Assembly: GCA_016866215.1 (NCBI GenBank)
Contig: VGNE01000021.1
Coordinates: 1 to 58,949, forward strand
Length of the DNA stretch: 58,949 nt
Reading direction: 5' to 3'
DNA from: Chloroflexota bacterium
GTDB taxonomy: Bacteria; Chloroflexota; Anaerolineae; Anaerolineales; Villigracilaceae
Shown here: in pieces, positions 15,409 to 15,973 of the stretch
How the letters are laid out: each line of letters begins with the position of its first letter
Numbering within the stretch: position 1 is the stretch's first letter
The notes under the pieces: generated by a model
The model's database searches: none
Seen by the model: the letters and a program-made list of their open reading frames with translations, nothing else
Told to the model about the DNA's origin: nothing
Made by a program: the position numbers and the translations under genes

Positions 15409-15582
15409 AAGTGAAGACCTGCGAGATTTTTACGAAATACCCTTTGGGTGAAATCTCGCAAGTCTTTGATCGAGCGGAAAAAACCCTTGCGATGTAGAAT
15501 CAGCCCCAAAGTTAACTCGGATGCGCGTAGATTGCCAAACCTACAATTCCCATACGAATCCACGATAGTCCCATTTTTGTTA

Positions 15583-15611
15583 TTGACTCACACTTTGAAA
15601 AGTACTATACT
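15583..15611 (+). promoter_or_regulatory. Consensus sigma-70-type promoter
   Basis: TTGACT (15583-15588) and TATACT (15606-15611) are separated by exactly 17 bases. This is the best housekeeping promoter seen in the window. Transcription should start near 15618 and read the leader in front of the SWIM-motif gene. Confidence 0.8.
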
Positions 15612-15617
15612 CGTCAT

Positions 15618-15704
15618 ATCGAGGTAACGCCCATATGCGCTTATTTCATGGAAACACCCAAGCAGGTTGATTTAACACGCGGATATCCCCGCGTGTATTT
15701 TTTT
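15618..15704 (+). ncRNA. Candidate small RNA or attenuator leader
   Basis: From the predicted start near 15618 the transcript would run about 85 bases and meet a strong intrinsic terminator: an 8-bp stem (15675-15682 with 15689-15696), a 6-base loop and a run of seven Ts. The terminator ends 26 bases before the SWIM-motif start codon, so most transcripts should stop there unless something prevents it. I recognise no known riboswitch class, 6S RNA or tmRNA in it. It could be an independent small RNA or a leader that controls the gene by attenuation. Both are inference. Confidence 0.45.
15675..15704 (+). terminator. Intrinsic terminator upstream of a start codon
   Basis: Stem ACACGCGG/CCGCGTGT followed by A and seven Ts. 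It lies between a good promoter and the ribosome binding site of the SWIM-motif gene. Confidence 0.8.
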
Positions 15705-15730
15705 ATTCCCTCAAAAAGGAGACTCGTACA

Positions 15731-15973
15731 ATGGATTCTGGACTGATCGGCAAGGTTGAAAAAGCAAAACGATATGCAGAGGATAGGCATCGCTTCCACT
15801 TCAATCAATTTGATCTTGATTTTCACGGCGACAATAGCGAACACCATGTTTCTTACGATGAAGGCGTTTTTAACTGCGATTGCGAGTTTTTCATTACCCA
15901 CCAGCGCTGCGGACACACCATGGCGATTGAAATCCTGCTCAAGGATATGATCGTTGAACCAGTGAAAGTTTAA
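15731..15973 (+). CDS. Small SWIM-type zinc-binding protein
   Basis: An 80-residue protein. The motif CDCEFFITHQRCGH (residues ~50-63) fits the SWIM zinc finger (C-x-C-x(n)-C-x-H), a fold used in protein or nucleic acid binding. The N-terminal half (KVEKAKRYAEDRHR, FDLDFHGDNSEHHV) is a short helix plus two strands. It appears to be a free-standing SWIM module of a type I recall in other Anaerolineae; function unknown. AAGGAG lies 9 bases before the ATG. It forms its own unit with a promoter (15583), a terminator-containing leader and a terminator downstream (15990), which suggests tight control. Confidence 0.75.
   Translation: MDSGLIGKVEKAKRYAEDRHRFHFNQFDLDFHGDNSEHHVSYDEGVFNCDCEFFITHQRCGHTMAIEILLKDMIVEPVKV

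Follow-up and report, generated by a model that had tools for sequence, protein, structure and literature searches.

Ribosome-mediated attenuation of transcription is already known; in its most familiar leader-peptide forms, the encoded peptide serves to detect an amino acid or a drug. In the msrD leader, a ribosome held at the stop codon of the upstream open reading frame (uORF) msrDL obstructs the terminator and the downstream gene is transcribed, as described in parts of PMC10314930. Passages of PMC4824070 (Li et al. 2015) report for E. coli that a terminator lost most of its activity, dropping from ∼90% to <10% termination, when a stop codon 28 bp upstream was shifted to a distance of 5 bp, and that uncoupling translation abolished this effect of stop proximity. 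The same passages sound a caution: in E. coli, most terminators that lie within 100 bp of the beginning of a coding region remain functional unless the polymerase pauses, because the ribosome has not yet caught up, with pyrBI as the pausing exception. Here we describe a leader from Chloroflexota in which a short uORF stops just before an intrinsic terminator, upstream of a gene for a SWIM-motif mini-protein.

The window, a 58,949-nt stretch of DNA from a Chloroflexota bacterium (contig VGNE01000021.1 of GCA_016866215.1), contains all of the parts of this leader on its forward strand. The promoter is near-consensus (10/12 positions) and consists of TTGACT (15583–15588) and TATACT (15606–15611) separated by 17 bases (15583–15611). 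Assuming a start site 7 bases 3′ of the −10 box, the terminated leader RNA would run from 15618 to 15704, a length of ∼87 nt. It ends at an intrinsic terminator (15675–15704) composed of an eight-pair hairpin, ACACGCGG-ATATCC-CCGCGTGT (15675–15696), and a T run (15698–15704). The SWIM gene (15731–15973, 80 residues, C49-x-C51-x8-C60-x-H62) has its own Shine–Dalgarno sequence, AAGGAG (15716–15721), within an AAAGGAG that is invariant in 37 leaders from the genus, and its ATG lies 26 bases beyond the T run. The first-pass annotation had proposed this promoter, a strong terminator about 85 bases into the transcript and a 26-base gap to the start codon, and each is found at the locus, the gap at exactly that value. 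Its description did not include a uORF between the promoter and the terminator (15635–15670), which comprises 11 codons encoding MRLFHGNTQAG followed by TGA (15668–15670). This uORF is preceded by a Shine–Dalgarno sequence, GAGG (15621–15624), 10 bases 5′ of its ATG, and only 4 bases separate its stop codon from the terminator stem.

Motif scans of this single sequence do not rise above chance: between 13000 and 19000 there are four promoter-like sites (7.5 in shuffles, sd 2.2) and seven terminator-like sites (7.4 in shuffles, sd 2.8). We therefore built the case on conservation in relatives, which is what marks the promoter and the terminator as real. The SWIM gene was found by sequence search in 54 of 61 genomes, including the window's own, and at 55 loci of named genome records; profile searches of 301 genomes sampled from the order and 301 from the phylum detected it in 258 and 235, respectively. 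Upstream regions were taken from these loci and from 120 stretches that were hand-picked for family spread among the matches listed. The resulting 255 loci, with two set aside (L086 and L087), gave 253 upstream regions, and removal of duplicates and of regions shorter than 130 bases left 219 distinct sequences. A terminator qualified when its hairpin reached at least −11.5 kcal/mol in stability and was followed by a T-rich tail whose end lay no more than 110 bases from the SWIM start; 178 of the 219 regions contain one. The remaining 41, which were excluded from the uORF tests, include 18 where the best hairpin lies too far upstream, 13 where it is weak, nine with none and one that is too short.

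Several of these regions have individual features. Six distant loci among the non-qualifying regions (L077 and L079–L083, three of them from Dehalococcoidia) have no uORF–terminator leader and instead carry an apparent promoter directly before the SWIM gene, with TATACTT ∼20 bases ahead of its start; either the switch has been lost at these loci or they represent an ancestral state without it. Two others have an extra stretch between the terminator and the SWIM gene, with the terminator 131–161 (L038) or 125–147 (L234) bases upstream, indicating that the leader is separable from the SWIM start codon. At three loci (L124, L131 and L204) no stop interrupts the uORF frame ahead of the terminator, and translation would continue across it.

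Within the genus, leader and gene occur together. A covariance model of the genus leaders gives a strong match (best E-value 1e-6 or better) in 36 of 41 genomes; in 33 of the 36 the match abuts the listed SWIM start, the other three genomes (G599, G600 and G601) falling outside the adjacency check. The five genomes with no strong match are the same five where no SWIM gene was found, and since the genus genomes are mostly drafts, either absence may reflect incompleteness. The first-pass annotation had named a leader not conserved in relatives that carry the same gene as a refuting outcome; the co-occurrence speaks in favor of its attenuation proposal. Beyond the SWIM-adjacent matches and those in the three unchecked genomes, the model finds two others at E < 0.001. 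One lies at a contig end (G010) and is perhaps the same leader split between contigs; the other (G020) is a terminator before another gene, which we take to be gcvH. A search of the window's own genome for a second copy gave one further DNA match, which covers the promoter part only (L087) and lies ahead of what we recognized by eye as, presumably, a sugar-transport region.

Evidence for the uORF comes from the position of its stop codon. For each leader, an ATG was chosen 27–52 bases before the stem core on the basis of its Shine–Dalgarno sequence and blind to the position of any stop; such an ATG is present in 154 of the 178 leaders. An in-frame stop falls within −10 to +5 of the stem core in 105 of the 178, compared with 19 and 28 for the +1 and +2 frames and 11.3 (sd 3.1, max 20) when the sequence before the stem is shuffled with dinucleotides kept. 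Widening the interval to −10 to +20 gives 129 of 178 in frame versus 20 and 33 out of frame. When the leaders were clustered at 62% identity to limit relatedness, 54 of the 69 representatives had the ATG and 32 the stop, the corresponding stop counts being four and nine for the other two frames and 4.5 (sd 2.1, max 13) for shuffled sequences.

The same pattern is seen outside the window's order. There, 31 of 51 leaders have the in-frame stop within −10 to +20 (out of frame, 3 and 10; shuffles 4.3, sd 1.8, max 10) and 21 of 51 within −10 to +5 (2 and 8; shuffles 2.7), and the wider interval holds for 16 of 31 representatives, compared with 2 and 5 out of frame and 2.5 in shuffles. The strict combination of ATG-initiated uORF and terminator occurs in 12 of 42 sampled families outside the order, including f35 and f45 (e.g. 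L165 and L185) and f30 (L121, L123, L127, L139 and L142); in the remaining families one or another of these parts (qualifying terminator, ATG or stop) is missing. Some Dehalococcoidia records also have a uORF leader (e.g. L065, L066 and L072). Exceptions consist of 24 of the 178 leaders with no ATG in the zone and, among the 154 with one, 22 with a late or missing in-frame stop and three with an early stop (11 and three, respectively, among the 54 representatives with an ATG). Judged by its parts, the uORF–terminator arrangement before the SWIM gene is present in many Chloroflexota lineages.

Initiation signals and codon changes point to translation of this frame. We selected 132 leaders where the stop ends within −12 to +22, represented by 41 clusters. 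A loose promoter pattern ending no more than 60 bases from the uORF ATG is found in 122 of the 132 (shuffles 1.1, sd 1.2) and in 35 of the 41 representatives (shuffles 0.3), with a spacer of 17 in 91 of the 122. An SD-like motif occurs at the uORF start in 105 of 132, versus 24.9 (sd 3.7) in shuffles. The uORF begins within 10 bases of the −10 box in 26 of the 122, and these 26 may be leaderless. We compared codons in 25 distinct close relatives selected by the peptide pattern M[RSQ][LIV][FY], a choice that favors the in-frame count; synonymous and nonsynonymous single-base changes number 67:85 in frame compared with 29:111 and 29:107 in the other two frames. The uORF between promoter and terminator thus appears translatable.

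The encoded peptides share little beyond a frequent Met-Arg start and differ widely between clusters. They have a median length of 12 codons (range 8–22), with Arg at position 2 in 19 of the 41 representatives and CGA as the second codon in 13. The last residue is variable, the commonest ones occurring in four of 41 each, and the stop codons are mixed (20 TGA, 14 TAA and seven TAG). Because the peptide is little conserved while length and stop position are kept, the leader would seem to read the arrival of a ribosome and no particular peptide.

The terminator is the only conserved RNA structure found in the leader. The consensus fold of 37 genus leaders consists of the terminator alone, with nine pairs of which three show compensatory changes. 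The covariation analysis that the first-pass annotation had proposed thus supports the terminator at the genus level and no other structure. Folding of the region around the uORF start in the 41 representatives is hardly better than in shuffles (mean z −0.2; eight below −1, three above +1), and the mean z for all 132 leaders is −0.41. A conserved 5′ hairpin hiding the uORF start, plausible in the window, was rejected on the mean for the representatives. The TTNTTT motif, a NusG-type pause motif, occurs in 40 of the 132 leaders against 17.2 expected from controls, but in only six of the 41 representatives where 4.0 are expected, and no general pause motif was found among the representatives.

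We next considered the geometry of the uORF stop relative to the terminator. On the assumption that the front edge of a ribosome positioned at the uORF stop reaches 9 bases past it, the hairpin of the window would weaken from −13.6 to −2.2 kcal/mol. For the 132 leaders, which had been picked for stop position, the median would change from −17.9 to −1.0 kcal/mol, with 103 left weaker than −6. For the 154 leaders whose ATG was chosen blind to the stop, the hairpin would be unseated by a ribosome at the in-frame stop in 104 cases, compared with 12 and 21 for out-of-frame stops. Occlusion depends sharply on position: moving the A site back by one, two or three codons would leave 34, 60 or 93% of the hairpin energy. 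The same RNA cannot hold both the folded terminator and a ribosome on the uORF stop, and the stop appears to be close enough to the stem for a ribosome to follow the polymerase up to the terminator.

These observations suggest the following model. Polymerase starting at the promoter would transcribe the short uORF and, directly after it, the terminator. Where the uORF end is free of ribosomes as the terminator emerges, the hairpin would fold and transcription would stop after ∼87 nt, so that a short RNA is implied as the product of the off state. A ribosome already at the uORF stop would instead cover the 5′ arm of the hairpin with its front edge; the terminator would then not fold, and the polymerase would continue into the SWIM gene. 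The leader would thereby gauge how quickly ribosomes load onto a short ORF and complete it in comparison with the progress of the polymerase. The caution about early terminators in the passages of PMC4824070 suggests, by analogy with E. coli, a system that is off by default and turned on by an early ribosome or a slow polymerase. What we read directly from the sequences is the set of parts with their conservation, the reading frame, the position of the stop and the geometry; that readthrough depends on translation, and in which direction, we infer. That the leader is a ribosome-dependent attenuator of some kind is, in our judgment, very probable; that it acts by ribosome occlusion, with timely uORF translation turning the SWIM gene on, is a reading we favor with more reserve. 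The first-pass annotation had left a choice between an abundant small RNA and attenuation through an unrecognized leader. Attenuation is the better supported of the two, but nothing in the leader points to a riboswitch, and a translated uORF appears to be the controlling element.

The same anatomy could work with the opposite trigger. As a sensor of translation stress, the leader would induce SWIM when ribosomes are delayed or arrested on the final codons or on the stop itself, whereas in the normal state quick release at the uORF stop would let the terminator fold; we consider this reading rather unlikely. The occlusion geometry fits a held ribosome equally well, parts of PMC10314930 provide a precedent in the macrolide-held ribosome on the msrDL terminator, and many uORFs of the genus begin with MRL, reminiscent of the MRLR of MefAL and ErmDL in the same source. 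However, stalling at least three codons upstream of the stop would preserve 93–100% of the hairpin energy, the last residue varies as noted above, and no resistance gene is known to take part. A macrolide-arrest peptide in particular was rejected: its +x+ motif is not enriched, occurring in six of 41 representatives versus 7.6 expected from residue-shuffled peptides. A different sort of regulator, a leader-binding protein that acts on uORF initiation or on the terminator, would be compatible with the ribosome-occlusion attenuator and the two could coexist. That protein might be SWIM itself, and its putative site a perfectly paired mini-hairpin of 3–5 bp around the uORF AUG that carries the first two bases of this codon, AU, in the loop (e.g. 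CGC-NNAU-GCG). The mini-hairpin is present in 11 of the 41 representatives, compared with 3.5 (sd 1.8, max 10) in shuffles, and the recurrent CGA second codon would agree with such a site; the mini-hairpin is not seen in the other 30, however, and the start region as a whole folds scarcely more stably than shuffled sequence; we consider this proposal improbable.

The near-consensus promoter and the terminator, with the ∼87-nt RNA expected from them, would also be expected if the short transcript were itself the product, either an abundant small RNA or a functional micropeptide, and SWIM were expressed by leakage. Against this, the peptides vary between clusters while the stop-to-stem spacing is kept, and the genus leader lies immediately 5′ of the SWIM gene; we regard it as very doubtful. 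A classical amino-acid attenuator or a riboswitch, to which a terminated leader with a leader peptide might also belong, is largely refuted and would be the most surprising outcome. The longest run of identical residues in the peptides is three, in three of 41 representatives, and no antiterminator partner for the 5′ arm was found (mean z +0.46; 0 of 41 representatives below −2). No Rfam family matches the leader at the gathering score, the sole match in the window being a tRNA; below threshold, the one match in the leader is McaS at an E-value of 0.53, and a riboswitch or other known RNA was rejected on these grounds.

The product of the regulated gene gives few clues to its function. An alignment of 20 SWIM members shows a conserved N-terminus (consensus MxSGLIGKVEKAKRYA) and a CxC...CxH zinc motif of the SWIM zinc finger type (PF04434), with C49, C51, C60 and H62 invariant in all 20 rows. 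The PF04434 model matches 15 of the 20 members at E-values up to 1 (best 2.2e-5), although not the window protein itself, and NCBIfam gives one weak match, to a Snf2-helicase model (E-value 0.0026–0.0064). An AlphaFold model (pLDDT 88) has a helix, three strands and two helices. Searches with Foldseek (best E-value 1.1) and VIA-align (best Z 3.4) gave no informative fold relative, and a profile search of the PDB gave one match, at an E-value of 1.1, to what is apparently a designed protein.

The gene neighborhood was examined for a conserved operon partner, and this candidate was rejected: the SWIM neighbors common to L031–L057 are absent from more distant loci, 10 of which, within L070–L083, share another neighbor. 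Pfam matches around the locus in the window include an amylase, an L,D-transpeptidase and a DNA methylase. The alpha-amylase-family protein (PF00128, 12391–15408) ends in a tail of ∼110 residues that is rich in lysine and alanine and resembles histone H1. At 13 related loci, lysine makes up 14–40% of the final 110 residues of the longest upstream ORF and 3–5% of the remainder, with the tail value above 20% in 12 of the 13. Between the amylase-like gene and the SWIM promoter lies an inverted repeat, CTGCGAGATTT...AAATCTCGCA (15419–15460); the pattern occurs once in the window's own genome and is not an abundant repeat there.

In the open-access literature, judged by titles and the beginnings of abstracts, we found nothing on a SWIM leader or on the Chloroflexota SWIM mini-protein. 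As far as that search extends, what is new is the tie to the SWIM gene, the spread over many lineages of the phylum, and the combination of a free peptide with a fixed stop. Frame, length and the position of the stop have persisted through very long evolution although the peptide was free to vary, and translation itself is therefore likely to be the signal. A leader tied to one gene across many lineages also offers a first handle on a common mini-protein. A bolder version of the model, which we put forward as a speculation, is that of an ancient, phylum-wide meter of ribosome supply, in which the uORF peptide hardly matters, the uORF is sometimes apparently leaderless, and the race between ribosome and polymerase serves as a timer whose output, the near-universal SWIM mini-protein, would feed back on transcription or translation.

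Compared with described classes of regulatory leaders, the SWIM leader has the two features of a leader-peptide attenuator, a putative uORF between promoter and terminator and a terminator before the gene. Neither the regulatory codons and mutually exclusive antiterminator of classical amino-acid attenuators nor a conserved arrest peptide of the msrD/erm type was found in the 41 representatives, and no conserved aptamer structure of a riboswitch was found in the 37 genus leaders. In the pyrE leader of E. coli, an upstream ORF stops shortly before the attenuator and readthrough likewise needs a close ribosome. The pyrBI and pyrE systems respond to UTP via polymerase pausing and have longer leader ORFs; they use pausing, whereas we find no general pause signal in the SWIM leaders. 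For pyrBI, too, passages of PMC4824070 describe readthrough that needs a ribosome close behind the polymerase up to the terminator. The msrD leader of mefA/msrD operons resembles the SWIM leader in having a very short uORF (msrDL, MYLIFM) shortly before an intrinsic terminator, according to parts of PMC10314930, but msrDL is peptide-dependent, senses macrolides and drives an ABC-F resistance factor, whereas the Chloroflexota leader has a little-conserved peptide and precedes a SWIM mini-protein gene. The whiB7/wblC and ilvB1 leaders of mycobacteria and their relatives likewise combine a uORF with premature termination before the regulated gene, as parts of PMC13236596 describe; the same parts ascribe to ilvB1 regulatory codons and a mutually exclusive antiterminator, neither of which was found in the SWIM leaders. 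Finally, the DUF1127 system of Sinorhizobium meliloti differs in that translating the uORF reduces expression; Rho is the suspected factor there, no intrinsic terminator having been found, whereas in the SWIM leader an intrinsic terminator abuts the uORF stop.
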